A stretch of DNA of 43,019 bases. It comes from Paracoccaceae bacterium. Its GTDB lineage: Bacteria; Pseudomonadota; Alphaproteobacteria; Rhodobacterales; Rhodobacteraceae. The DNA lies in the NCBI GenBank assembly GCA_014359745.1, contig JACIYW010000006.1, positions 1 to 43,019 of the forward strand. Direction: 5' to 3'. The number at the start of each line of letters is the position of its first letter. Position 1 is the first letter of the stretch. The notes beneath the pieces were generated by a model, which made no database searches, had not been told where the DNA came from, and saw only the letters and a program-made list of their open reading frames with translations. Below are positions 26,648-40,153 of this stretch, in pieces. Made by a program: the position numbers and the translations under genes.

Positions 26648-26986
26648 ATGCTGATCCTGACCTGCCCCTGTTGCGGCATCAAGGCCGATGAAACCGAACT
26701 TGCGCCGGGCGGCGAGGCGCATATCAAACGCCATGGCCCCGGATCGTCGGATGCCGAGTTCGAGGCCTATCTGTTCACCCGCGCCAACCCGCGCGGCGTG
26801 CATTTCGAACGCTGGCGCCACGCTTATGGCTGCGGCAAATGGTTCCTGGCCGCCCGCGCCACCGACACGCTGGAGGTGTTCGGCACCTACCCCGCAACAT
26901 CCACCGCCGTGCCCGATGCCATCCTTTCCCGCATCCGCGCCCGCCGCCCCGACTGGATCAAACCCGACCGGATCAAACCGGCATGA
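26648..26986 (+). CDS. soxD: Sarcosine oxidase delta subunit SoxD
   Basis: SoxD is the small zinc-binding subunit of sarcosine oxidase. The 112-aa product starts with the metal motif TCPCCG (Cys6, Cys9) and continues with FERWRHAYGCGKWF (His58, Cys62), matching the family's zinc site of two cysteines plus later His/Cys ligands. The segment RANPRGVHFERWRH is a strong family signature. The start is ATG 26648. Its stop overlaps the soxA start (ATGA), so the two are translationally coupled. Length is typical (~100 aa). Confidence 0.94.
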   Translation: MLILTCPCCGIKADETELAPGGEAHIKRHGPGSSDAEFEAYLFTRANPRGVHFERWRHAYGCGKWFLAARATDTLEVFGTYPATSTAVPDAILSRIRARRPDWIKPDRIKPA

Positions 26987-29952
26987 GCCATCGTCTTCCC
27001 TCTGGCGGCCGCCTGATCGACCGCGCCACCACGCTTGGTTTCACCTTCAACGGGCGTCGGCTCAAGGGCTATGGCGGCGATACGCTGGCCTCGGCGCTGC
27101 TGGGCAATGACCGGATGCTGGTGGGCCGGTCGTTCAAATACCATCGCCCACGCGGCATCGTGGCCTCGGGCCCCGAAGAGCCGAACGCGCTGGTCGGCCT
27201 GGGGCAGGGCGCGCGGTTCGAGCCGAACCAACGCGCCACCACAACCGACCTTTTCGCCGATCTTGTCGCGCAAAGCCAGAACCACTGGCCCAGTCTTGAT
27301 TTTGACATCGGCGCGCTGAATGGCCTGATGTCGCGGTTTCTGTCGGCGGGGTTCTATTACAAGACCTTCATCCACCCCCGCGCCTTCTGGAAACACCTGT
27401 TCGAGCCGACGATCCGGCACTCGGCGGGGCTTGGCCGGCCGACAAGCGAACCCGACGCCGACCGTTACGAACACCTCTATGCCTTTGCCGACGTTCTGGT
27501 GATCGGCGGCGGTATCGCGGGGTTGCAGGCGGCGCGCACGGCGGCCGAAAGCGGCGCGCGGGTGATGATCTGGGAACAATCGGCGCATTGGGGCGGCCGC
27601 GCCCCCGTCGATGATCCCGATGTCGAAGGCATGCCCCCCGACGACTGGATCAGCGCCACGCTGCACTGGCTGCGGGCGCAGCCCAATGTCACGCTGCGCA
27701 GCCGCACCATGGGGGCGGGCGTCTATGATCACGGCTATGCGCTGGGCTATGAACGGGTGACCGATCACCTGCCCGGCCTTGATGCGCCCCGCCACCGCCT
27801 GTGGCGCGTGCGCGCCGGTCGGATCATCACCGCCACCGGCGCGATAGAGCGGCCGCTGTCCTTTGCGGGCAATGATGTGCCGGGGGTGATGCTGGCCGGG
27901 GCGGTGCGCGATTACGTCGTCAATTTCGGGGTGGCGCCGGGTCGGCGCACCGTGATCGTCACCAACAATGACGATGCCTACCGCACCGCCATCACCCTGC
28001 ACAGCGCCGGGTTGGAGGTGGCGGCGGTGATTGACGCGCGCGCCCGCGCCACCGGCGATCTGCCGCAGCGCGCCCGCAGCCTTGGCATCCGGGTAATGAC
28101 GGGGCGGGCGATTGCGCGGGTGCGGGGCGGGGGCCGGGTGACGGGGGTTGATATCTGTCAACACACTGGCACCGGCGCGGCCGGCGCGCTGATTGCCTGC
28201 GATGCGGTGGCGATGTCGGGCGGCTGGTCGCCGGTGGTGCACCTTTGGTCGCATTGCGGCGGCAAGCTGATCTGGGACGCGGGCGCGGCCCTTTTCCGCC
28301 CCGATCCGGCCCGCGCGCCCACCGGGGCCGATGGCGCGGCTTTCGTGGCGGCGGCGGGGGCGGCGAACGGGGTGATGCGGGGCGCGGCGCTTCTGGCCGA
28401 TGCCCGCGCGGCGGCGGCGGGCGGCGACGCACCCGCCCCGGAACCTGAGGCGATCACCCCCGTCTGGATCATGCCCGCCGCCGCCGGGCCCGGCCTGCGG
28501 GCGAAGATGTGGCTCGATTTTCAGAACGATGTCAAAGTGTCCGACGTGCAGCAGGCCGCGCGCGAGGGCTATGTCAGCGTTGAACACGCCAAACGCTATA
28601 CCACGCTGGGCATGGCCACCGATCAGGGCAAGCTGGGCAATATCAACGGCCTTGCGGTTCTGTCGGATGCGCAAGGCGCGCCGATCCCGGATGTCGGCAC
28701 CACCACCTTTCGCCCGCCCTACACGCCCATTTCGATGGGGGCCATCGCGGGCGAGGCGCGCGGCGATGTCTTTCAGCCGCTGCGCCGCACCCCGATGCAT
28801 GACTGGCACGCCGCCCATGGCGCCGATTGGGAACCGGCGGGCCAATGGCGGCGCCCCTATTGCTATCTTCGGCCGGGTGAGGCGCGCAATGATGCGGTCG
28901 CGCGCGAAATTCTGGCGGTGCGCGGGGGTGTCGGGCTGATCGATGCGTCAACCCTTGGCAAGATCATCGTCAAGGGGCCGGATGCGGGCCGGTTTCTGGA
29001 CATGCTTTACACCAACATGATGAGCAATCTTGCCCCCGGCAAATGCCGCTATGGGCTGATGTGTTCGGAAAACGGCTTTCTGATCGATGACGGGGTGGTG
29101 GCGCGGATCGACGAAGACACCTGGCTTTGCCACACCACCACCGGCGGCGCGGACCGCATTCACGCCCATATGGAAGACTGGCTGCAATGCGAATGGTTCG
29201 ATTGGCGCGTGTACACCGCCAATGTCACCGAACAGTTCGCGCAGATTGCCGTGGCCGGGCCGAAGGCGCGCGATCTTTTGCAGGCGCTGGGGGGCCTGGA
29301 CGTATCATCGGGCGCGCTGCCGTTCATGTCCTGGGCCGGGGGGCGGCTTGCCGGTATTCCTCTGCGCGCCTATCGGATTTCGTTCAGCGGCGAGCTGTCT
29401 TACGAACTGGCCACGCCCGCCGGGCACGGGCTGGCGCTGTGGCGGGCGCTGGTGGATGCCGGGCAGGATCTGGGCGTGATCGCCTATGGCACCGAGGCGA
29501 TGCATGTCATGCGCGCCGAAAAGGGGTTCATCATGATCGGCGATGAAACCGACGGCACGGTCATTCCGCAGGATCTGGGCCTTGGCTGGGCGATCTCACG
29601 GAAAAAGGCCGATTACATCGGCAAGCGCGCGCAGGAACGGGCGCATATGACCGACCCGGATCGCTGGAAACTGGTCGGGTTGCAAACCCTTGACGGATCG
29701 GTACTGCCCGAAGGGGCCTATGCGGTGACGGATGCGCGCAATGCCAACGGGCAGGTGGTGACAGAGGGACGCGTGACCTCGACCTGTCATTCCCCGACGT
29801 TTGACCGTGGCATCGCCATGGGGCTGGTGCGCCATGGCCCCGACCGGATGGGTGAGGTGCTGCGTTTCAACCGCGTCGATGGCACCACGGTTGAGGCGCG
29901 CATCGTCGATCCGTGTCTTTATGACCCGAAGGGAGGGCGGCAAGATGTCTGA
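26983..29952 (+). CDS. soxA: Sarcosine oxidase alpha subunit SoxA
   Basis: SoxA is the largest subunit of sarcosine oxidase. It binds NAD and transfers the one-carbon unit to tetrahydrofolate. The 989-aa product has three parts: an N-terminal ferredoxin-like region (FTFNGRRLKGYGGDTLASAL, then RSFKYHRPRGI), a Rossmann region (DVLVIGGGIAGLQAARTAAE, from ~residue 165), and a C-terminal glycine-cleavage T-protein-like domain (from ~residue 600, with GVGLIDASTLGKIIVKGPDA and FISFSGELSYEL-like sequence). ATG 26983 overlaps the soxD stop. The soxG start lies within its last codons (8-nt overlap). Length and motifs match the family; no damage is visible. Confidence 0.96.
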   Translation: MSHRLPSGGRLIDRATTLGFTFNGRRLKGYGGDTLASALLGNDRMLVGRSFKYHRPRGIVASGPEEPNALVGLGQGARFEPNQRATTTDLFADLVAQSQNHWPSLDFDIGALNGLMSRFLSAGFYYKTFIHPRAFWKHLFEPTIRHSAGLGRPTSEPDADRYEHLYAFADVLVIGGGIAGLQAARTAAESGARVMIWEQSAHWGGRAPVDDPDVEGMPPDDWISATLHWLRAQPNVTLRSRTMGAGVYDHGYALGYERVTDHLPGLDAPRHRLWRVRAGRIITATGAIERPLSFAGNDVPGVMLAGAVRDYVVNFGVAPGRRTVIVTNNDDAYRTAITLHSAGLEVAAVIDARARATGDLPQRARSLGIRVMTGRAIARVRGGGRVTGVDICQHTGTGAAGALIACDAVAMSGGWSPVVHLWSHCGGKLIWDAGAALFRPDPARAPTGADGAAFVAAAGAANGVMRGAALLADARAAAAGGDAPAPEPEAITPVWIMPAAAGPGLRAKMWLDFQNDVKVSDVQQAAREGYVSVEHAKRYTTLGMATDQGKLGNINGLAVLSDAQGAPIPDVGTTTFRPPYTPISMGAIAGEARGDVFQPLRRTPMHDWHAAHGADWEPAGQWRRPYCYLRPGEARNDAVAREILAVRGGVGLIDASTLGKIIVKGPDAGRFLDMLYTNMMSNLAPGKCRYGLMCSENGFLIDDGVVARIDEDTWLCHTTTGGADRIHAHMEDWLQCEWFDWRVYTANVTEQFAQIAVAGPKARDLLQALGGLDVSSGALPFMSWAGGRLAGIPLRAYRISFSGELSYELATPAGHGLALWRALVDAGQDLGVIAYGTEAMHVMRAEKGFIMIGDETDGTVIPQDLGLGWAISRKKADYIGKRAQERAHMTDPDRWKLVGLQTLDGSVLPEGAYAVTDARNANGQVVTEGRVTSTCHSPTFDRGIAMGLVRHGPDRMGEVLRFNRVDGTTVEARIVDPCLYDPKGGRQDV

Positions 29953-30532
29953 CCCCGTCAGCGCGCTGCCCGGCGCCCGCTACACGGGCTATGTGACGGT
30001 GGCCGAAGCCGGGGTGCAAGGCATGATCACCCTGCGCGGCGATCCATCCGCCGACGCGCTGCGCAGGGCGTTGCGCGCGGCCATCGGGGCGGACATGCCG
30101 GATCGACGGCGCATCGTGGCAGGCACCGCAGGCGCGGTGGCGTGGATGTCGCCCGACGAGGTGCTGATCCTGCTTCCCCACGGGGAAGCCGCGCGGGTGG
30201 TGGCGCAGATGCAGGCGGCCCTGGCGGGCGAACATGCGCTGGTGGTGGATGTGTCGGACGCGCGGGCGATGTTCACGCTGCGCGGCAAGGGCAGCGGCGC
30301 GGATGTGCGCGAGGTGCTGGCCAAGCTATGCCCGGTCGATCTGGCGCCCGCTGCCCTGCCCGCGGGCGAGGTGCGCCGTACCCGCGCCGCGCAGGCGGCG
30401 GTGGCCTTCTGGATCGACGCGGCGGGCGTGGCGCATCTGATCTGTTTTCGGTCGGTCGCGCAGTATGTCTTTGATTTGATCAGCCTTTCAGCCCGGCCCG
30501 GCGCCGAGGCGGGGCTGTTCCCGGACCCCTGA
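29945..30532 (+). CDS. soxG: Sarcosine oxidase gamma subunit SoxG
   Basis: SoxG completes the heterotetramer and helps shape the folate-binding part. The 195-aa product has the gamma-subunit features RRIVAGTAGAVAWMSPDEVL and DARAMFTLRGKG, then CPVDLAPAALPAGEVRRTRA. Start ATG 29945 lies inside the soxA gene, overlapping by 8 nt. It is the last gene of soxBDAG. Folate or formyl-tetrahydrofolate genes (folD, purU, glyA), often downstream in other bacteria, are absent here. The next gene is a superoxide dismutase, which may have its own promoter. Confidence 0.92.
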   Translation: MSDPVSALPGARYTGYVTVAEAGVQGMITLRGDPSADALRRALRAAIGADMPDRRRIVAGTAGAVAWMSPDEVLILLPHGEAARVVAQMQAALAGEHALVVDVSDARAMFTLRGKGSGADVREVLAKLCPVDLAPAALPAGEVRRTRAAQAAVAFWIDAAGVAHLICFRSVAQYVFDLISLSARPGAEAGLFPDP

Positions 30533-30567
30533 ATTCAGGTATTTCCCACAGACCTTTGGTGCGGCCC

Positions 30568-30601
30568 CTTGACCTTCGGGCGGGAAAGGCCCTTATCTGG
30601 G
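30568..30601 (+). promoter_or_regulatory. RpoH-like promoter before the superoxide dismutase gene
   Basis: CTTGACC (30568-30574) and CTTATCTGGG (30592-30601) resemble the alphaproteobacterial heat-shock sigma consensus CTTG and CYTATNTNNG; the second matches every fixed position. The spacing after CTTG is 20 nt, two longer than the usual 17-18. A plain sigma-70 reading is also possible but has a poor -10. Confidence 0.4.
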
Positions 30602-30644
30602 GGGCAACCGGATAATTCAATCAGACCCTGCGAAAGGATTTCAC

Positions 30645-31253
30645 ATGGCTTTCGAACTCCCCCCCCTTCCCTATGCCCATGACGCGCTGGCCGATCTTGG
30701 CATGTCCAAAGAAACGCTGGAATTTCACCATGACATTCACCACAAGGCCTATGTCGACAATGGCAACAAGCTGATTTCCGGCACCGAATGGGACGGCAAA
30801 TCAGTTGAGGAGATCATCAAGGGCACCTATCAGTCGGGCGCCGTGGCGCAATCGGGCATTTTCAACAATGCCTCTCAGCACTGGAACCACACACAGTTCT
30901 GGGAAATGATGGCGCCGGGTGAGAAAAAGATCCCCGGCGCGCTTGAGACGCGGCTCAAGGATGCGTTCGGCTCTGTCGACAAGTTCAAGGAAGAGTTCGC
31001 CGCCGCGGGCGCCGGGCAGTTCGGGTCGGGCTGGGCCTGGCTGGTCGTGGATGCGGAAGGCAACCTGCGCGTCACCAAGACCGAGAACGGCGTCAATCCG
31101 CTTTGTTTCGGGCAGACGGCACTTTTGGGATGCGATGTGTGGGAACACAGCTATTACATCGATTTTCGCAACAAGCGGCCGGCCTATCTGACCAACTTTC
31201 TTGAAAAGCTGGTCAATTGGGAAAACGTGGCCGAGCGGTTGTGGAATGCCTGA
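30645..31253 (+). CDS. sodB: Fe/Mn-type superoxide dismutase
   Basis: The enzyme converts superoxide to H2O2 and O2 in the cytoplasm. The 202-aa protein has the four metal ligands: His28 (FHHDIHHKAYV), His82 (HWNHTQFW), Asp164 and His168 (CDVWEHSYYIDF). The segment AGQFGSGWAWLVVD is nearer the iron-type form, though related alphaproteobacterial enzymes can use either metal. GAAAGG precedes the start. It is transcribed alone and ends at a strong hairpin terminator, convergent with thyX. Being next to sarcosine oxidase, an H2O2-producing enzyme, may be coincidence. Confidence 0.95.
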   Translation: MAFELPPLPYAHDALADLGMSKETLEFHHDIHHKAYVDNGNKLISGTEWDGKSVEEIIKGTYQSGAVAQSGIFNNASQHWNHTQFWEMMAPGEKKIPGALETRLKDAFGSVDKFKEEFAAAGAGQFGSGWAWLVVDAEGNLRVTKTENGVNPLCFGQTALLGCDVWEHSYYIDFRNKRPAYLTNFLEKLVNWENVAERLWNA

Positions 31254-31277
31254 AACGGGTCTTCGCTAACGTGATAT

Positions 31278-31312
31278 GGCCCCGCCGGGTAACCCTTGGG
31301 CGGGGCCTTTTT
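31278..31312 (+). terminator. Rho-independent terminator of the superoxide dismutase gene
   Basis: GGCCCCGCC (31278-31286) pairs with GGCGGGGCC (31299-31307) over a 12-nt loop and is followed at once by TTTTT. The position 24 nt after the stop codon and the stem plus T run make this a clear terminator. Confidence 0.9.
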
Positions 31313-31445
31313 CTTGCCGGAATGACCGAACGGGTGCCACCACCCGCGCGCAAAAGCTGCGCATTCATTGCGCACCGGTGCGGCGCCGGAAGCCTGGCGC
31401 TTCGGTGACGGCCAGCGTGGCCTGCGCCCGCGCTGCAAGGGCGGA

Positions 31446-32351
31446 TCAGCCGAATATATCGATGAATTCCCGCCATTCCCGCGCGCTCATGCCGCTGGTC
31501 TCTTGCGTCACCTTCTCCCCCGCCAGCATCCGGCGCAGGCAGGCAAGCGCCTTGGCTGACAATGTGGCGCCGCCCATGCGGTAATCCTCGAACGCGGCAT
31601 AGGCCAGCGGCACCCAATCGCGCACGCAGGCAGCGATCGCCTCGGCATAGACGCGGATCTCGTATTGCGCATGGGCATCGGCGCGCAGGCGCAGGAAGTG
31701 GAAGAGGTTGTGCAGGTCGGTCTTCCAGTACCATTGCGTGTAGATATTGGCGGGCAGGTTCATGCGCGCCAGTTCGCGGGCAAGACCCTGCTGGCCGTCT
31801 TGGCTAAGCATCGCCTCGTAATTGTCATAGGCGCGCATCGCGTCGGTTTTGAGGATGTCGAGCACGCGCGCGGCCTCGGACCCGTCCAGCACCGCGCCCC
31901 GGCCCTGGTTGTTCTGGGTGGATTGCGCGGCAAGCTGTTCGGGGGCGGGGATGTAGAATTCGCGGTCCATCACCGAATAGCGGGCGGAGTATTCGTTGAC
32001 GTTGGCCGTTCGGTGGCGGATCCATTGGCGGGCGACGAAGATTGGCAGTTTGACGTGCAGCTTGATCTCGCACATCTCGAAGGGGGTCGAATGCCAGTGG
32101 CGCATCAGATAGCGGATCAGCCCCTCGTCATTCTGCACATGTTTGGTGCCCGCGCCGTAAGACACGCGCGCGGCCTGCACGATGGCCGCATCATCGCCCA
32201 TGTAATCGATCACCCGCACAAAGCCGTGATCAAGCACCGGGTTGGCGTGGTAAAGATGCGCCTCCATCCCGTCGCTGACCGCGCGCAGGGTCGGGCGGGG
32301 GGTGGCGCGCTGTGCGGCAATCTCGGCCTGCTGGTCGGGGGAGAGGGGCAT
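31446..32351 (-). CDS. thyX: FAD-dependent thymidylate synthase ThyX
   Basis: ThyX methylates dUMP to dTMP using methylenetetrahydrofolate and FAD/NADPH, replacing ThyA. The 301-aa enzyme contains the ThyX motif in the form [15 protein letters not shown] (residues 112-126); the first conserved small residue, often Ser, is Asn here, while the final Ser is kept. Other family blocks are [20 protein letters not shown] and [24 protein letters not shown] 32351 is chosen because AAAGGA stands 8 nt upstream and the frame beyond it crosses the promoter. It converges on the superoxide dismutase gene. Confidence 0.96.
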
Positions 32352-32387
32352 GGCGGCGATCCTTTGGCGATGGGTGAGTCGGCGCCC

Positions 32388-32416
32388 ACTATATCTGGGG
32401 TGGTGGGCTGAGTGAA
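32388..32416 (-). promoter_or_regulatory. Sigma-70 promoter of thyX
   Basis: On the minus strand TTCACT (32416-32411), 17 nt, TATAGT (32393-32388) matches the consensus at 4 of 6 and 5 of 6 positions. It predicts a start near 32381 and a leader of about 30 nt. Confidence 0.55.
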
Positions 32417-32487
32417 CGTCTATATGAAGTTGAGAAGGGCGGGCTTGCGCGAAATGCCACGGTCGCTCGGAAACTGCCCGTGGGCGT

Positions 32488-32516
32488 TGACTTTTTCCGG
32501 GGATCAAGGGATTCTG
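32488..32516 (+). promoter_or_regulatory. Possible promoter of the lipoprotein/Slam operon
   Basis: TTGACT (32488-32493), 17 nt, GATTCT (32511-32516) gives a good -35 but only a 3-of-6 -10. It lies about 50 nt upstream of the lipoprotein start. Confidence 0.35.
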
Positions 32517-32565
32517 ATAACAGGCACGTCATCCACAGAAGATGATGAAACGGGCAGAGGGTTTC

Positions 32566-33471
32566 ATGGGCAGGATTTCATCGTTTCTGTTGGCTGTGGT
32601 TTTGGCCGGATGCGGCGGCAATTCGTTCGATAAGGTTGCGGTTGTCGATCCGGGGCCTGTTGAACCGGCCCCGCCCGTGGGCGAACTGGGCGATCCGGTG
32701 GATCCCAACGGGGTGACGGTGCCTGCGGTTCTGGCGCAGAATCTTGACGCGGCGGTGTTCGATCCCGTTGCCCAGACCTTGACGATTTCCCTGACCTCGC
32801 TGGATGGGTCGCCGGTCAGTGCCGCCTATAATCGCGACACATCGCTTGATGTGCCGGGGTTTCAGGCCTATTCGATTCAGGAAAATACCACACAGCGCAA
32901 ATTCGTGGCGCTGTTCCGGGAGTCCGCGTCGGGAAATTCCCAGGCGGGCGTGGTGGCTGACGGCGGGCAGTTCGTGAATACCTTTGGCGGTGGCACCTTC
33001 GCCAGGTTCAACAGCGCGACCGCAACGTTGCCGACAACCGGGTTGGCAAGCTATACGGGCGAATACGCGGGGGTGCTGAACACCGGCGATGCCTTGCCCG
33101 GTCCTGGCGCGCCGTTTGATCCTGTCCAATCCCACCGGGTCACGGGTGAGGTTTTGCTGAACGCCGATTTCAACGACATGACGGTGAACGGCGGCATCCG
33201 CAACCGTCAGGTGGTCGAGACTGGGCAGGTCTATGATGACGTGTTTCTGGCAGTGACCGGGATCAGTGCCGACGGGGCCTTTGCCGGGGTGGCAAAGCGG
33301 GATCCGGTTGCGACCATGGGCAATTATGGCGGTGTCTTTGCCGGGCCGAATGCATCCGAGGTGGCGGGCGTGATCGTCGTGAACCCGGTGGTGGGCGCGA
33401 CCGACCTGGTGGAACACGGTGCGTTCGTTATACCCGCCTGTGTCGGGGGCGATCCGTCGCCGTGTCCGTAA
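32566..33471 (+). CDS. Surface lipoprotein with TbpB-like beta-barrel (probable Slam substrate)
   Basis: The ~301-aa product begins with a lipoprotein signal (MGRISSFLLAVVLAGCGGN; lipid on Cys16), then a proline-rich flexible linker (VDPGPVEPAPPVGELGDPVD), then a beta-rich domain. Near its end, MGNYGGVFAGPNASEVAGVI matches the hallmark of TbpB-type barrels (GxFxGpnAxEvxG), which are surface lipoproteins delivered by Slam. A Slam-like gene starts within its last codons. The C-terminus has two cysteines (ACVGGDPSPC). ATG 32566 has AGAGGG just upstream; ATG 32542 or 32545 would add 8 or 7 residues. The ligand is unknown: heme, metal, host or algal factors are all possible, and I do not claim any. 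Confidence 0.75.
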   Translation: MGRISSFLLAVVLAGCGGNSFDKVAVVDPGPVEPAPPVGELGDPVDPNGVTVPAVLAQNLDAAVFDPVAQTLTISLTSLDGSPVSAAYNRDTSLDVPGFQAYSIQENTTQRKFVALFRESASGNSQAGVVADGGQFVNTFGGGTFARFNSATATLPTTGLASYTGEYAGVLNTGDALPGPGAPFDPVQSHRVTGEVLLNADFNDMTVNGGIRNRQVVETGQVYDDVFLAVTGISADGAFAGVAKRDPVATMGNYGGVFAGPNASEVAGVIVVNPVVGATDLVEHGAFVIPACVGGDPSPCP

Positions 33472-34871
33472 GGCGCGGTTTTGCACGGCGCGCCGGGCAG
33501 AATTCAGGGTTCGTACATTTTTTTGCGATGGTGTTGGTGGCATGGCTGGCCGTGCCAACCGGCGTGCAGGCGGGGCCGGATGATCTGACGATGGATCTGG
33601 CGACGGCGCGGGTGTTTGCGCGCGCGGCGATTGCCGAAGGGCAGGGCGAGCTTGCGCGGTCGGTGGCGTTGGGGCTTTTGCAGGCTGATCCCGATGATTT
33701 CTTTGCCTATGCGATCCTGTCGGCGGCGGAAAGCCTGCGCAACCGGCCCGATGCGGCGCGGGCGGCGGGGCAGCGGGCCTATCGGCTGGCCAGTACCGAT
33801 GCCGAACGCTACGAGGCATCGATCCTGACGGCGCGGGCGCTGGCAGACGATCAATCCTACACGCTGGCGCAGCTTTGGTTGCGCCGGGCGGTGCAGGACG
33901 CCCCTGATGAGGTTGCGCGCGCCGGGGCTGAACGGCAGTTCCTGCGGGTGCGCCGGGTCAATCCGCTGTCGGTCAGCCTGTCGTTCGGTATTACCCCCAC
34001 CTCGAACGTCAACAACGGGTCGAGCAAGGATCGGATAGAGGTTTTCGGCCTGCCGTTTCAACTGTCAGGCGCGTCGCAGGAACTGTCGGGGCTGGAAATA
34101 TCGGGGGGCGCATCATTGCGCTATCGGCTGGCGCAGACACAAGACAGCGCGACAGAGGCCGGGGCCCTGCTGTTCGGGCGCACCTTTCGCCTGTCGGACA
34201 GCGCCAGACGCAAGGCCCCCGATGCCAAGGGCAGCGATTTCGCCTTTCAGGCCGTGGAACTGTCGCTGACGCACCGGTTCCGGACCGGGGCGGATCGGCC
34301 GGTTTATTCGGTTGGCGGCACGCTGGGCCGCAACTGGTTCGGGGGGGACGCGCTGACCAATTACGCGCGCCTGTCGCTGGGGCGCACCGTGTCGCTGGCC
34401 CAAAGCACCGCGTTCGACCTTGACCTGACCGGCGAGGCACGCGACCGGCTGGACAATTCCGACCGGTCGTCAACCCGGTTCGAGATCCGCGCCGGGATCA
34501 CGCATGCCTTTGCGTCGGGCGATCGCGGCGGCGGGTATCTGGGGCTGCGCAGGGAAATATCAGACTCGGAAGATACGGATCATGCGGGGGTGCTGGCGGG
34601 GCTGCGGTATCTGCGGGGCAGCCCGGTTGCCGGGCTGCGGTTAAGCGCGCAGGCCGAGGTAGAGTGGCGCGAGTACGGGGTGACGGCGCTTGCCCCCGGC
34701 GGGCGCGAGGATTTTTCGGCCACGCTGGGCGTTACCGCCACCTTTGAGCGGGTTCAGTATTACGGCTTTTCCCCCAGTCTGGAACTGCGGGCGCGGCAGG
34801 TGACATCCGATGTCGCGCTGTTCGAAAGCCGCGAGATCGGGCTGCGGCTGGGCCTTGTTTCGGCGTTCTGA
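33462..34871 (+). CDS. Surface lipoprotein assembly modifier (Slam)-like outer membrane protein
   Basis: Slam proteins move lipoproteins across the outer membrane to the cell surface. The 469-aa product starts at GTG 33462, inside the lipoprotein gene (10-nt overlap). It has a signal peptide (FFAMVLVAWLAVPTGVQA), a helical TPR-like domain (~residues 40-165, with ARAAIAEGQGELARSVAL and QSYTLAQLWLRRAVQDAPDE) and then a C-terminal beta-barrel (~170-469) entered by the motif VNPLSVSLSFGITPTSNVNN, as in Slam/DUF560 proteins. The last residue is Phe, the usual outer-membrane barrel signal. Coupling to a TbpB-like lipoprotein strongly supports the role. The family assignment is from layout and motif; a distant non-Slam TPR-porin remains possible. 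Confidence 0.8.
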   Translation: MSVRRGFARRAGQNSGFVHFFAMVLVAWLAVPTGVQAGPDDLTMDLATARVFARAAIAEGQGELARSVALGLLQADPDDFFAYAILSAAESLRNRPDAARAAGQRAYRLASTDAERYEASILTARALADDQSYTLAQLWLRRAVQDAPDEVARAGAERQFLRVRRVNPLSVSLSFGITPTSNVNNGSSKDRIEVFGLPFQLSGASQELSGLEISGGASLRYRLAQTQDSATEAGALLFGRTFRLSDSARRKAPDAKGSDFAFQAVELSLTHRFRTGADRPVYSVGGTLGRNWFGGDALTNYARLSLGRTVSLAQSTAFDLDLTGEARDRLDNSDRSSTRFEIRAGITHAFASGDRGGGYLGLRREISDSEDTDHAGVLAGLRYLRGSPVAGLRLSAQAEVEWREYGVTALAPGGREDFSATLGVTATFERVQYYGFSPSLELRARQVTSDVALFESREIGLRLGLVSAF

Positions 34872-34931
34872 GGGCATTGGCGCGGCGCGGTTCTTGCCCT
34901 AGGTTGCAGGGGCAACGACAGGAGGCGCAAC

Positions 34932-35360
34932 ATGACCATTCGATATCTGCACACCATGGTCCGGGTGAAGAACCTGGAAGAGAGTATCGCCTTTTACGAG
35001 GCGCTGGGCCTGACGGAAACCCGCCGCATCGACAATGACGAGGGGCGGTTCACCCTGCTGTTCATGGCCCCGCCGGGACAAGAGGAATGCCCGGTCGAAC
35101 TGACCTATAACTGGGATGGTGATGACGGGCTGCCCTCGGACAGCCGCCATTTTGGTCATCTGGCCTATGAGGTGGATGATATCTATGAAACCTGCGCCGA
35201 TCTGCAATCGAAAGGTATCGTGATCAACCGTCCGCCGCGCGACGGGCGCATGGCCTTTGTGCGCTCGCCCGACAATATATCGGTGGAACTGTTGCAAAAG
35301 GGCGCGGCACAGGAGCCGAAGGAACCATGGGCAAGCATGGAAAATACCGGGCACTGGTAG
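34932..35360 (+). CDS. gloA: Lactoylglutathione lyase (glyoxalase I)
   Basis: GloA converts the methylglyoxal-glutathione adduct to S-lactoylglutathione. The 142-aa protein has the two beta-alpha-beta repeats of glyoxalase I with metal ligands His7 (YLHTMVRV), Glu56 (PVELTYNWD), His76 (HFGHLAYEVDD) and Glu119 (NISVELLQ), close to the E. coli positions. The Trp of TYNWD and the short length point to the bacterial Ni/Co form. AGGAGG lies about 8 nt before the ATG. It is followed by a glutathione transferase in the opposite direction; both use glutathione, but a functional link is not shown. Confidence 0.95.
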   Translation: MTIRYLHTMVRVKNLEESIAFYEALGLTETRRIDNDEGRFTLLFMAPPGQEECPVELTYNWDGDDGLPSDSRHFGHLAYEVDDIYETCADLQSKGIVINRPPRDGRMAFVRSPDNISVELLQKGAAQEPKEPWASMENTGHW

Positions 35361-35477
35361 GCGGCGCCCCGGCGCTGGATGTGTCGGGTGGCGGGGACAA
35401 CAATCACGGGTTTGGCCACGATCTGGCGATGCCCATTTGCCGTTGGGCGGCGTTACGGTGAAGGGGCTGGTGGTCGG

Positions 35478-35506
35478 GCCCGCGCCGCCGTCGGTCGGGC
35501 GCGGGC
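35478..35506. terminator. Possible bidirectional hairpin between gloA and the GST gene
   Basis: GCCCGCGCC (35478-35486) and GGCGCGGGC (35498-35506) form a 9-bp stem over an 11-nt loop in the gap where two genes converge. There is no T run on either side, so termination is uncertain. Confidence 0.35.
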
Positions 35507-35513
35507 GGGCCGT

Positions 35514-36101
35514 TCACTTGGCCATGGCGCGCTGATAGGCCGGGCGGGCGCGCATCCGGTCGAGATAGGCGGAATAGCCAGGCTGCGAGATGGGAAATTT
35601 TGCCCCGATCGCCCAGAATCCGCAATGGGTGCAGATGATGTCGGGCACCGTCATCACATCACCCATCAGGAAGGGGCCCGCACCCATGCGATCGACCAGC
35701 ACCTTCTGGCTGCGCTCGAATTCCCATTTCAGGCTGTCCTTGATGGCGGGATGGCGCAGCTCTTCGGGCAGGATGAAGCTGTGGCGCGCGGCCATCCACA
35801 GCACAGCGTCGAATTCATCCAGCAGGAATTGCGTCAGGCTGTCTTGTCGGGCGCGATCCAGTGTTCCGGCGGGATAGGTCAGCGCGCCGTGTTTGTCGGC
35901 CAGATACTGGATGATCGCGGTTGAATCGGTGATGGGGGTGCCATCATCGACCAGCACCGGGATCTTGCCGACCGGGTTGAACGCGGTCACATCTTCCGAA
36001 CGCGGCAAGGCGCGGGTGTGTTCATAGGGTTGTCCAAGTTCTTCCAGCATCCACAATACGCGGGCGGCGCGGCTTTTTGTGGTTCCGATGACGGTGTACA
36101 T
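35514..36101 (-). CDS. Glutathione S-transferase family protein
   Basis: The 195-aa product has the thioredoxin-like N-terminal domain of GSTs (MYTVIGTTKSRAARVLWMLE; NPVGKIPVLVDDG, with the cis-proline; ITDSTAIIQYLADKHG) and an all-helical C-terminal domain (about residues 88-195, containing FLMGDVMTVPDIICTHC). The Thr/Ser after the first strand would activate glutathione. The subclass and substrate cannot be told. ATG 36101 has AGGAGA upstream and gives the normal N-terminus; further upstream the frame runs through holA. It starts 8 nt after the holA stop, so it is likely co-transcribed with leuS-lptE-holA. Confidence 0.93.
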   Translation of the reverse strand: MYTVIGTTKSRAARVLWMLEELGQPYEHTRALPRSEDVTAFNPVGKIPVLVDDGTPITDSTAIIQYLADKHGALTYPAGTLDRARQDSLTQFLLDEFDAVLWMAARHSFILPEELRHPAIKDSLKWEFERSQKVLVDRMGAGPFLMGDVMTVPDIICTHCGFWAIGAKFPISQPGYSAYLDRMRARPAYQRAMAK

Positions 36102-36109
36102 ATGGTCTC

Positions 36110-37132
36110 CTAACGTGCTGCCATCATGGCGATGCGGATCAGTGTGCGTTCCATCAGTGCCATGGCCGGCGCGCGTTGGGAAGAGCGCAGGCGCAGGTCG
36201 GTTTCCACCAGATCGCCCAGCGCCCGTTCCAACCGGGCCGCGCCCCAGCGTTGGGCCTGGCGGGCCATCCGGTCGCGGCGCGGCCCCCAGACGGGGGGGC
36301 GGGCACGGGCAAGCCCCGAGGCCACGCCGCCCGGATCGCAGGCCGCCGCGTGCAGCGTGCGAAAATGCCGGGTGGCCTGAATGCACAGCGATACCGGCAA
36401 CACCCCCTGGCCCGACAGCCGGTTGATCAGCGGCCCGATGGCCTGCACCCCGGCCTCTGCCACGGCGTTGATGACGTCATCGACGGCGGCCTCGATCGTG
36501 GCGGGGGCGCAAAGCGCGATGTCTTGCGGGGTCAGCGGTGCCGGATCACCGCGTTTGTAAAGGCCGATCTTTTCAACCGTCTGCCGGAAATCGCCCGGAT
36601 CAAGGCTGCGCGACAGCGTGATCAGATCCGCCATGGCGGCGGGATCGATCTGGCGCAGGCCAGCGGCGGTCAGCAGGGCGTCAACCTCTTCGCGGGTGGG
36701 GGGATCATCGTAGATCGCGGCGGCGAATGCGTTTTTCAGGGTTTCGAACGTCTTGCGCAGCGGCGATTTCGCGCCAAGCCGACCGGCGGTGACGATCAGC
36801 ACCGCATCCCCCGCCTGCCATTCCTTCAGCGCGGCGATGACCGGGGCGGCGGTTGTGTCGGTCACATCCTCGATCAGGGCGGCGCGCGGGCCGGGGAAAA
36901 AGCCCTGCGCGCGCATTGCGTCCGATACCGCAGCAGGATCGCGGCGCAGATCGGCGGCGTTGATGCGGGTCAGGCGCATTTCCGCCTCGCCCTCGGGGCC
37001 GATCAGGGCGCGCACCACCTCTTGCCGTTTCAGGGCGACGCGCATCGCATCGTCGCCATGGATCAAAAGCCCCGCGTGTGCCGGATCGGGCCGGGCGAAA
37101 ATGCGGGTCGCATCGCGGCCCGAGAGCTTCAT
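36110..37132 (-). CDS. holA: DNA polymerase III delta subunit HolA
   Basis: HolA (delta) opens the beta sliding clamp within the clamp-loader complex. The 340-aa product shows delta features: LLIHGDDAMRVALKRQEVV at the start, FFPGPRAALIEDVTD (the clamp-binding element region), SRSLDPGDFRQTVEKIGLYK and the C-terminal RWGAARLERALGDLVETDL. Weak conservation is normal for this subunit. ATG 37132 overlaps the lptE stop (ATGA). leuS-lptE-holA in this order is common in alphaproteobacteria, so the label is strongly supported by context. Confidence 0.93.
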   Translation of the reverse strand: MKLSGRDATRIFARPDPAHAGLLIHGDDAMRVALKRQEVVRALIGPEGEAEMRLTRINAADLRRDPAAVSDAMRAQGFFPGPRAALIEDVTDTTAAPVIAALKEWQAGDAVLIVTAGRLGAKSPLRKTFETLKNAFAAAIYDDPPTREEVDALLTAAGLRQIDPAAMADLITLSRSLDPGDFRQTVEKIGLYKRGDPAPLTPQDIALCAPATIEAAVDDVINAVAEAGVQAIGPLINRLSGQGVLPVSLCIQATRHFRTLHAAACDPGGVASGLARARPPVWGPRRDRMARQAQRWGAARLERALGDLVETDLRLRSSQRAPAMALMERTLIRIAMMAAR

Positions 37133-37620
37133 GCGCCCCAGGCCCCTGGTGTGGCCAGCAGTTGCGTCACGATCTGATCCGCGAGGATGCGCATCAGGCG
37201 GCGGCTTGCGTCGATCTCGGCCGTGCGGGTGGCAAGGGTGGTGCCGGTGGTGGAATGGGCGGTGAAATTGCGCACCCGGCCCGAGGCCAGAACCTTGTCA
37301 TTTTGCAGGTTGGTGACCTTATAGGTCACCTCACCGGTCAGGTTGTAACGGGTGATGGCATTGGTGGGCGATACGCCGATAGCCACCTGATCGGTGGCGA
37401 TGCTGTAGCTGAGCGCGTAGGCCGCATCGGTCGGGCGGCCGATGCGTTCTTCCAGCCGCTCCACCAGATCGAAACCGCGCTTGTCGGTCGGCGCATCTAT
37501 CAGGAACCGGCCTTGCAGGTTTGACGCCGCGCCGCCCGGCCCATAGGCCGGGGTAAACCCGCAGCCTGCCAGAGCGGCACCCAGGCCCAACAAAAACGAT
37601 CTGCGATCAGAGAACCACAT
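37129..37620 (-). CDS. lptE: LPS-assembly lipoprotein LptE
   Basis: LptE plugs the LptD barrel that inserts lipopolysaccharide into the outer leaflet of the outer membrane. The 163-aa product has a lipoprotein signal ([20 protein letters not shown], lipid on Cys20), followed by [10 protein letters not shown] and an alpha/beta domain. The double arginine of SDRRSFLLG is Tat-like, but Sec export with a basic start is just as likely. The gene overlaps the end of leuS by 14 nt and the start of holA by 4 nt. Length and context are typical. Confidence 0.9.
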
Positions 37621-40153
37621 TGACGATACGCCCCGGAACCACGATCAGTTTTTTCGGGCTGGCCCCGGCAAGAAAGCGCACCACCTCGGGGTCGGCCAGC
37701 ACCAGTTTTTCAACGTCACCCGTTGGCAGGGCTTTGTCCACCTTGATTTCGCTGCGCCGTTTGCCGTTGATCTGGATCGGCAGGATTACGGTATCATCTG
37801 TCAGCAGCGCCGGATCGGGTTTGGGCCAGGGGGCGGCGGCAACCAGCCCCGCACCGCCAAGGATGTGCCAGGCCTCTTCGGCCAGATGCGGGACCATGGG
37901 CGCGGAAAGCTGGGCGAGCGTGCGCAGCGCCGTGCGCTTTGCCTCGGCGCCCGCGTCGGATTTCTGGACGGCATTGGTCAGGGCGTAAAGTGCGGCGACT
38001 GCCTTGTTGAAGGCGAACCCTTCGATCCCGCGCGTCACCTCGTCGATGGCGCGGTGCGTGGCGCGGGCGAGATCCGCGTCGGCGGGGTGGGGGCCGCTGG
38101 TATAGGCCGCTGCCTCATGCGCCATGCGGTGCACGCGGGTCAGGTGGCGGAACGCGGCCTCGGCCCCCGAGGATGTCCATTCGACATCGCGTTCTGGCGG
38201 GCTGTCGGACAGCACGAACCAGCGCGCGGTATCGGCGCCGAACTGCGAGATGATGTTGACCGGATCGACGACATTCTTCTTGGATTTCGACATCTTGGCC
38301 GAGGGGATGACCGTCACCGCCGCGCCGGTGGCCTTCAGTTTGCCGTCTTCGACGTCTTCGGGCAGGTGATAGACGGGGCGGCCCTGCGCGTCGCGGGTCA
38401 TGTAGATTTCATGCGTCACCATGCCCTGGGTGAAAAGCGCGTTGAACGGCTCTATCGCCTTGGCGGGCAGGTGGCCGGTGCGGTGCATGGCGCGGGCGAA
38501 GAAGCGCGAATAGAGAAGATGCAGGATCGCGTGTTCGATGCCGCCGATATACTGATCGACATTCATCCAGTATTCGGCCTCGACCGGGTCGGTCGGCGTT
38601 TCGGCGTGGGGCGCGGTGAAACGGGCGTAGTACCACGAGCTATCGACGAAGGTATCCATCGTGTCGGTTTCACGCCGGGCGGGTTTGCCGCAGGAAGGGC
38701 AGGCGCAGTGCCGCCATGTCGGGTGCCGATCCAGCGGGTTGCCGGGCTGATCGAACGTCACGTCATGGGGCAGGCGGATGGGCAGGTTTTCCTTGCGCTC
38801 TGGCACCACGCCGCAGGCATCGCAATGCACGACCGGAATCGGGCAGCCCCAGTAGCGTTGCCGCGACAGGCCCCAATCGCGCAGGCGGTATTGGGTGACG
38901 CCGTGGCCCACGCCCTTTTCCTCGCAGAATGAGATGGCGGCGGCGATGGCGTCGGTGCCGGTCTGTTCCTCGGGCCCGGCGAAGCCGCGGATATAGCGCA
39001 CGGGTTCGGTCTTGGGGGGCACGAATGCCTCATCCAGCGGGGCCTCGTCGGCGCCCCTGGCAACGAAAACCGGCGGGATCGGAAGGCCGTATTTCGTGGC
39101 GAATTCGAAATCGCGCTGATCATGGGCGGGCACGCCGAAAATCGCGCCGGTGCCATAGTCCATCAGGATGAAATTGGCGATATAGACCGGCAGTTCCAGC
39201 GCGGTATCGAACGGGTGGCGCACGCGGATGCCGGTGTCAAACCCGCGTTTTTCGGCCTTTTCCAGCGCCTCTTCGGATGTGCCGATGCGGCGGCATTCCG
39301 CGTTGAAGGCGGCGACCTTCGGGTCATGCCGTTCCAGGTTCCTGGCCAGCGGATGGTCGGGCGAGATGGCGGCAAAGCTCATCCCCATCAGCGTGTCGGG
39401 GCGGGTTGAATAGACCTCCAGCCGGTCAAACCCTTCGGGCGCGCCCACCGTCGAAAACGCCATCTGCAACCCGCGAGAGCGGCCGATCCAGTTGGCCTGC
39501 ATCAGACGCACCTTTTCGGGCCAGTCCTTGAGCCCGTCAAGCGCGGTCAGCAAATCCTCGGCATAGTCCGAGATGCGAAAGAACCATTGCGTCAGCTCGC
39601 GCCGTTCAACCTCGGCCCCCGAACGCCAGCCGCGCCCGTCGATCACCTGTTCATTGGCGAGCACGGTCATGTCGACCGGATCCCAGTTCACCACCGCGTT
39701 CTTGCGATAGACGATGCCCGCATCCAGCATATCAAGGAACATCGCCTGCTGCTGGCCGTAATATTCAGGATCGCAGGTGGCGAATTCGCGCGACCAGTCG
39801 ATCGACAGGCCCAGCGGTTTCATCTGCGCGCGCATCTGGTCGATATTGGCATAGGTCCAGTCGGCGGGGTGGCCGCCCTGTTCCATTGCGGCGTTTTCGG
39901 CGGGCATGCCGAAGGCGTCCCATCCCATCGGGTGCAGCACCGAATAGCCTTGTGCGGCCTTGGTGCGCGCCACCACATCGCCCATGGTGTAGTTGCGCAC
40001 ATGGCCCATGTGGATGCGCCCGGACGGGTAGGGGAACATTTCCAGCACGTAATATTTCGGGCGGGCGGGATCGTGGCGGGCGGTGAATATCCCGGCATTT
40101 TCCCATGCGGCCTGCCAGCGCGGCTCGGTCACGGCGGGGTCAAAGGATGACAT
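37607..40153 (-). CDS. leuS: Leucyl-tRNA synthetase
   Basis: LeuS attaches leucine to tRNA-Leu. The 848-aa class I enzyme has the HIGH motif as HMGH (residues 48-51, in [17 protein letters not shown]) and the KMSKS motif in [16 protein letters not shown] (~residue 620). The editing domain contains [21 protein letters not shown] cysteine pair in [11 protein letters not shown] lies in the zinc-like insert. ATG 40153 gives the usual start ([14 protein letters not shown]). Its last codons overlap lptE, indicating one transcript with lptE, holA and possibly the GST gene. Confidence 0.98.

Follow-up and report, generated by a model that had tools for sequence, protein, structure and literature searches.

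A probable two-gene Slam-type surface-display operon between thyX and a glyoxalase gene in Rhodobacteraceae

Slam proteins combine an N-terminal tetratricopeptide repeat (TPR) domain with a predicted 14-strand DUF560 barrel, as set out in passages of PMC5449769, and for Slam1 and its cargo TbpB both holding by Skp and barrel passage have been reconstituted (passages of PMC9090332). In Rhodobacteraceae, a locus in which thyX, a cargo gene, a gene for a type XI secretion system (T11SS) outer membrane protein (OMP) and a glyoxalase gene follow one another was described as 'marine cluster 3' by Grossman et al. 2025 (PMC12282271). According to main-text passages of that paper, the locus was described in 11 Rhodobacteraceae/Roseobacteraceae strains with a predicted cargo in 10, and a co-occurring cargo was counted as rare, the TbpBBD domain being present in 8 of 145 cluster 3 loci; three explanations were left open, namely that the exporter seldom lies beside its cargo, that the cargo is too divergent to be detected, or that the cargo has been lost (PMC12282271). 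Here we describe such a locus in a Paracoccaceae bacterium (GenBank assembly GCA_014359745.1, contig JACIYW010000006.1, positions 1 to 43,019); this whole stretch of 43,019 nucleotides is referred to as the window. Between thyX and a glyoxalase gene it carries a lipoprotein gene, whose product is termed the cargo, and a gene for a TPR and beta-barrel protein, termed the OMP.

The two genes very probably constitute a type XI (Slam/T11SS) surface-display operon, one that seems to be exchanged and lost as a unit between thyX and the glyoxalase gene. Both homologies, the predicted folds, the pairing, the promoter, the empty sites and the joint class switching were computed here. The pair belongs to the recently described kind of locus; in the literature searched on Slam, T11SS and DUF560 in Rhodobacter, Roseobacter and Alphaproteobacteria, only PMC12282271 and a database paper were found. 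New here are the proposed three-state site, the joint class switching, the corrected reading of co-occurrence, the shared promoter and the C-terminal cysteine pair of class B cargos; empty sites, cassette exchange at the site, the promoter and the cysteine tail were not found in the main-text passages of PMC12282271, supplements aside. The initial annotation of the window had taken Slam to be studied mostly in Neisseria and relatives; it had the family right, but the alphaproteobacterial locus type is already in print in passages of PMC12282271.

Homology and predicted folds of the two proteins

A lipobox, a proline-rich stretch, the motif GVFAGPNASEVAG, a final Phe and a 10-nt overlap of the two genes had been reported in the initial annotation, and all were found, with the two genes at the coordinates it had given (Table 1). 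The GVFAGPNASEVAG motif sits within the cargo barrel. The cargo matched the Pfam TbpB_B_D model at 26.4 bits (E 1.1e-5), narrowly over the cut-off of 26, and the NCBIfam slam_lipo model at 37.1 bits (E 3.5e-9), under that model's cut-off of 80 bits; the latter shortfall weighs against a Slam-type assignment, and by these scores the cargo is related to slam_lipo and lies outside that curated equivalog model. Together with the recurrence of the two-gene arrangement in relatives, these matches go beyond chance. An AlphaFold2 model built on 56 aligned cargos (alignment A3, whose 56 rows were all chosen for having a lipobox) reached a mean predicted local distance difference test (pLDDT) score of 86.2. 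The TbpB-type barrel of the initial annotation is borne out by the Pfam match and by an eight-strand barrel predicted at high confidence, and the cargo as modelled is not a lipoprotein without a barrel. The solved fold closest to the model was fHbp (Z 16.8, 163 residues, root-mean-square deviation 2.6, 16% identity), followed by haemophilins (Z 13.7-14.7), HpuA (Z 11.8), NHBA and TbpB or LbpB lobes; the model was also compared by Foldseek, and a sequence search of the PDB with the cargo gave nothing of note.

The haemophilin and HpuA similarities would suit a haemophore or iron-piracy protein of the HphA, HpuA or TbpB type that uses a TonB receptor encoded elsewhere, and one Plug-domain protein is present in the genome. 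We regard this as rather improbable. No TonB receptor was found among the nine neighbour genes scanned (26839-40153), as the initial annotation had remarked for the adjacent positions; genome-wide, a single Plug-domain match was obtained, at the edge of a different contig (C63). At a threshold of 80%, 33 cargos of class B, the class of the window cargo (see below), have no conserved His; the first 160 residues lack His in 9 of 37 class B cargos, the window's handle domain has none, and the shared promoter looks sigma-70-like. The earlier suggestion that the cargo may do something other than iron piracy is plausible. Its role would most likely be to bind an extracellular partner or ligand that differs between lineages.

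The OMP was modelled with a mean pLDDT of 93.6, and the seven helices and 14 strands of the model agree with the TPR plus beta-barrel protein of the initial annotation; the barrels closest to it were CymA and OmpG (top rows at Z about 20-21). The 10-nt overlap holds given the GTG start at 33462, which is plausible in that it supplies an arginine-rich n-region and a hydrophobic core that are lost with the later ATG at 33528.

Homology of the OMP to Slam appears at the level of the family. SlipAM was matched by 14 of 17 aligned family members at E <= 0.1 (best 1.9e-10), the window protein not being among the 14, and when a profile built from 70 relatives was compared by hhalign with 20 SlipAM proteins that are not members of the family, the probability was 99.9 (E 4.6e-35, 410 columns). 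The barrel by itself gave 99.8% over 284 columns, and a reversed-barrel control 0.7%. The 20 SlipAM loci came from a phylum search in which 49 of 299 genomes matched and 14 control genomes matched none. Two results weigh on the other side: the window OMP alone had no SlipAM/DUF560 (PF04575) match in the Pfam search, and no structure named Slam was among the 50 PDB rows listed by either OMP structure search. By itself the window protein gave only weak Pfam and NCBIfam matches, TPR among them, a PDB sequence search with it found nothing (with the OMP profile, TPR-type matches were among the rows), and a search for related loci using its sequence alone likewise found nothing. A direct SlipAM search of the genome itself gave no match, which is no proof of absence, since 14 control genomes gave none either. 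On the profile comparisons, the OMP family is homologous to SlipAM/DUF560 Slam-type proteins and not an unrelated TPR-porin family, so that the Slam/DUF560 profile check proposed in the initial annotation came out in its favour for the family.

The best Foldseek rows for the OMP were BcsC and PelBC, as would be expected if it were a BcsC/PelB-type exopolysaccharide exporter, also of TPR plus barrel build, and the lipoprotein an unrelated periplasmic neighbour. Against the SlipAM matches across the family, the barrel-only hhalign result, the absence of polysaccharide genes among the nine neighbours scanned and a near-constant pairing with a TbpB-like lipoprotein, this is extremely unlikely, and on the family evidence BcsC and PelBC are to be read as analogues of a Slam-type translocator.

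Pairing, empty sites and the shared promoter

An OMP-profile match was found in 259 of 394 genomes in the family search, some of them weak. The OMP survey comprised 101 loci: the window, 20 from the first family search and 80 chosen by hand from the strongest matches listed, places near a contig start being avoided and a few others skipped. A second survey, anchored on the glyoxalase gene, comprised 80 named loci, those with the strongest glyoxalase matches among at least 596; 181 loci (101 and 80) were read in total, five being common to both.

A cargo-profile match on the same strand was present in 97 of the 101 OMP loci, and in 96 it stood immediately before the OMP, at -61 to +97 nt relative to the OMP profile start, with a profile built partly from the survey itself, 18 of the matched cargos having gone into it. 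A stricter first pass gave an adjacent cargo in 91 of 101 loci, its filter having been tripped by long stop-to-stop frames. The lipobox, read by eye in the window and by pattern in relatives, was found in 91 of the 97 matched cargos. Another lipoprotein stands upstream of the OMP instead of a cargo-profile match at L039 and L040, and at L038 the cargo match is one gene further from the OMP. Constant pairing is contradicted by L125 and L126, which have an OMP without a cargo gene directly upstream, and by L175 (Silicimonas algicola), where the OMP stands at the thyX site without a cargo match; judged from its sequence, L175 is a true cargo loss. Among the three explanations of PMC12282271, below-threshold similarity appears to fit best for the loci surveyed here, because the cargo is nearly always adjacent and, of 18 cargos, three match TbpB_B_D, five FHBP_C and seven slam_lipo at E <= 0.1. 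The surveyed cargos are mostly under the Pfam threshold.

Upstream of the 80 glyoxalase genes, an OMP with adjacent cargo was present in 29 loci, an OMP without adjacent cargo in three (L151, at a contig end; L175; and L188, with a cargo about 400 nt away), and no OMP was counted in 48. A divergent thyX was found in 30 of these 48. The gap between it and the glyoxalase gene measured 69-234 bp in 29 of them, and the remaining one, L191, turned out to contain an OMP that fell outside the filter. Where an OMP was present, thyX was found in 25 of 32 loci and the gap was 1606-3415 bp. On the best ThyX+VOC tree (56 rows) OMP presence required 13 changes, compared with about 19 in shuffles, and 4 were forced by well-supported branches. 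The pair thus appears usually to be gained or lost together at the site.

From co-occurrence, passages of PMC12282271 proposed a functional link to thyX, glyoxalase or DUF1194, whereby the pair would work in folate, aldehyde or nickel physiology or have DUF1194 as its cargo. Co-location favours such a link, as does DUF1194, which is present in 66 of 101 OMP loci and is commoner with an OMP (19 of 30 loci versus 13 of 40 without; p 0.015, uncorrected for relatedness). With correction, 4 independent pairs were obtained on starred branches, with no difference in 3.1 on average. As an obligate partner DUF1194 is not supported: its gene is absent from the window locus, the genome's one DUF1194 match being on another contig (C197), and the relatedness-corrected pairs are too few to decide. 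thyX and the glyoxalase gene adjoin with or without the pair, which is a location effect; no functional link is required to explain why they co-occur with the exporter, and co-occurrence statistics alone should not be read as one. We consider a functional link very unlikely.

The two genes share a probable upstream promoter. Of 91 cargo genes, 88 have a TTGAC in the 200 nt upstream, and in 77 of these it stands 57-83 nt ahead of the gene start. TTGACT occurs within 150 nt upstream of 66 of 91, compared with 1.2 in shuffles, a control that covers this hexamer and distance and not TTGAC in 200 nt. Aligned sites contain a conserved TTGACTTT followed by a GAnnnT box at 17-nt spacing, and the promoter common to both genes looks sigma-70-like. 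It escaped a consensus promoter scan, whose one listed site is on the thyX side (0.7 expected in shuffles); the one site from a terminator scan falls inside the OMP gene (3.9 expected). The initial annotation had proposed a self-contained unit, a claim strengthened by the common promoter and the usual joint gain or loss.

Several loci showed peculiarities of their own. L125 and L126 are strong OMP relatives with no thyX or glyoxalase gene found nearby, and G186, the genome of L126, has a second OMP elsewhere; L038, L039 and L040 are distant OMPs at other sites, each behind a different lipoprotein gene, and L038 appears to carry two consecutive lipoprotein genes. In L207 (5859-5936; Ascidiaceihabitans) the glyoxalase gene is closely preceded by a 17-bit OMP fragment, possibly the remnant of a decayed cassette. 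In L031 (7301-8208) the cargo signal peptide and body are in different frames (pseudogene, phase change or sequencing error), and in L141 (3118-4568) two overlapping frames match the cargo profile, so that this cargo, from Limimaricola cinnabarinus, may also be frame-shifted. L203 (JAFKDC010000015.1), identical in DNA to L034, is a typical thyX-site cassette titled Enemella evansiae, an actinomycete by taxonomy; its genome, G002, was placed in the window's family, and the title or sample looks wrong.

Class A and class B cassettes

The 90 lipobox cargos comprised 51 of class A, 37 of class B (including the window) and two others. A class B motif, GGQF, corresponds to handle-domain residues 133-136 of the window cargo, at conserved positions. 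Within the C-terminal 45 residues, 33 of 37 class B cargos have a Cys pair, against 0 of 51 in class A, and we infer a disulphide between Cys292 and Cys300 in the class B tail. The cargos of L077 and L118 belong to neither class.

Loci entered the trees only if they had thyX, VOC, a long OMP and an assigned class, the last of which L077 and L118 lack. Across 65 loci the class label required 3 changes on the OMP tree and 16 on the ThyX+VOC tree, with about 20.7 in shuffles, and a single class B clade was rejected by the flank data (p-AU 0.0004). On a second flank tree, class needed 8 changes on 25 named A/B rows, and with the empty state added 18 changes on 54 rows, compared with a shuffled mean of 21.8. 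That class tracks the OMP tree and not the flank tree suggests that the pair is exchanged as a unit at the thyX-glyoxalase site. A number of results tell against exchange as a strict unit. Resolution of the ThyX+VOC tree is weak, 26 of its 62 inner branches being open and 9 starred; of its 16 changes only 4 are forced by starred branches, as are 2 of the 3 on the OMP tree, and the flank tree shows a slight clustering of class, with values as low in 6 and 13 of 500 shuffles. Pairing is not strict: the class A cargos of L108 and L115 accompany OMPs that fall within the B side, and the class A cargos of L041 and L113 accompany OMPs at the base of that side. A long branch at this base carries the window OMP, whose nearest relative is L077 (41% identity), that of the window cargo being L103.

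Sister species of the genus Gemmobacter offer a closer comparison, G. caeni having class A and G. aquaticus and G. serpentinus class B. Their thyX DNA is 82-86% identical; between G. caeni and the other two there was no DNA alignment across the pair at E 1e-5, and the alignment picks up again at VOC. In its cargo, G. serpentinus shares 52% identity with Rhodobacter aestuarii (L202) and 36% with G. aquaticus, and the closest OMP to its own is that of L066 (38%, versus 27-32% within the genus), whereas its thyX and VOC are 75-77% identical to those of L202 and L066 versus 80-84% to those of other Gemmobacter. The other two species fit less well: the closest OMP to that of G. caeni is in L049, whose thyX is as close as those of the congeners and whose VOC is closer still; for G. 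aquaticus the closest is Cypionkella (L200), with flanks only slightly further off. Among the three, identity values thus firmly place the cassette nearer to a more distant host than to congeners for G. serpentinus alone.

Discordance with the flanking genes would likewise result if the A and B cassettes were old tandem paralogues differentially lost, or had diverged fast in place, with no exchange between lineages, and part of the discordance is tree noise. Evidence on the other side is that two OMP matches of >250 residues were found in none of the 181 loci read, that class differs even among Gemmobacter species, and that the G. serpentinus cargo and OMP are nearer to L202 and L066 than to congeners while the flanks are not. 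We take loss or divergence without exchange to be unlikely, if still to be reckoned with. Tentatively, and with a little less than even confidence, the site may be viewed as a three-state surface-identity locus at which recombination through conserved flanks exchanges or removes a whole cognate cassette, A or B. If so, related Rhodobacteraceae would acquire different surface lipoproteins, plausibly under phage or grazer pressure; and if the pair is exchanged as a unit, the natural A and B pairs at one site would offer a test system for the exporter's recognition of its cargo.

The window locus, its proposed working and known systems

The features of the window locus are collected in Table 1. 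The thyX start was set by eye near where relatives begin aligning, the longest open reading frame beginning at 32507. Identity in relatives having the respective gene was 73-84% for thyX and 72-79% for glyoxalase, whose nearest named relatives are Rhodobacteraceae. Beyond the glyoxalase gene, on the opposite strand, lie genes for a glutathione S-transferase, a protein without a Pfam match, LptE and LeuS; on the other side, 26839-31253 holds genes for the sarcosine oxidase alpha and gamma subunits and then an Fe/Mn superoxide dismutase gene. The GC content of 62.5% for the cargo gene, 66.7% for the OMP gene and 64.1% for the window shows no trace of recent import.

Table 1. Coordinates of the pair, its parts and its border genes in the window
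Feature	Coordinates	Strand	Basis or remark
thyX (flavin-dependent thymidylate synthase)	31446..32354	-	Pfam Thy1 E 1.4e-57; left border, divergent from pair
Probable promoter of pair: -35 TTGACT (32487-32492), 17-nt spacer, -10 GATTCT (32510-32515)	32487..32515	+	Comparative
Cargo lipoprotein, class B, 301 aa	32566..33471	+	ATG 32566, stop ends 33471
Lipobox LAGC (VVLAGC in window), Cys16 lipidated (predicted)	32602..32613	+	Cys16 invariant in 56-row alignment
Proline-rich linker, low confidence, residues 17-52	32614..32721	+	Block pLDDT 45-67 up to residue 50
N-terminal strand-rich handle domain, residues 53-159	32722..33042	+	Seven strands, 60-147, in AlphaFold2 model
C-terminal eight-strand barrel, residues 160-291	33043..33438	+	AlphaFold2 model; Pfam match residues 155-270
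C-terminal tail with Cys292 and Cys300	33439..33465	+	Cys pair in 33 of 37 class B cargos
T11SS/Slam-type outer membrane translocator, 469 aa	33462..34871	+	GTG 33462, stop ends 34871
Probable signal peptide, residues 1-37	33462..33572	+	Read by eye
TPR domain, residues 46-166, seven helices, periplasm expected	33597..33959	+	AlphaFold2; TPR structures Z 17-20
14-strand barrel, residues 168-469, Phe last	33963..34868	+	Long strands counted in model
Glyoxalase/VOC (lactoylglutathione-lyase-type) gene	34932..35360	+	Pfam Glyoxalase E 1.8e-18; right border

The first gene would yield a lipoprotein that is exported by Sec and acylated at Cys16. It would probably cross the periplasm unfolded and be taken up by the TPR domain of the OMP, with holding by Skp and barrel passage expected by analogy with Slam1/TbpB. 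The cargo would then thread the 14-strand barrel and stay lipid-anchored outside, its eight-strand barrel and handle domain facing the medium. In relatives the site holds a class A cassette, a class B cassette (as in the window) or none. Translocation, surface exposure, cognate specificity and exchange by recombination are what we infer from these comparisons.

A TbpA/TbpB locus has an adjacent TonB-dependent receptor, and the window locus has none. The closest solved fold to the cargo is fHbp, yet a human complement ligand makes no sense here, and the fold gives no function. HphA is a secreted haemophore. Like the cargo, this haemophilin has a handle domain and an eight-strand barrel; the class B cargos align without a conserved His. 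In Neisseria, Slam1 and Slam2 with TbpB, fHbp or HpuA show the same TPR and 14-strand barrel protein beside an eight-strand-barrel lipoprotein (passages of PMC5449769 and PMC9090332), whereas the window pair has no TonB receptor, lies in a Rhodobacteraceae host and has an OMP too distant for the Pfam model. Compared with marine cluster 3, as presented in passages of PMC12282271, the window locus differs in having no DUF1194 gene beside it and is alike in its thyX, its cargo with an eight-strand barrel, its T11SS OMP and its glyoxalase gene.

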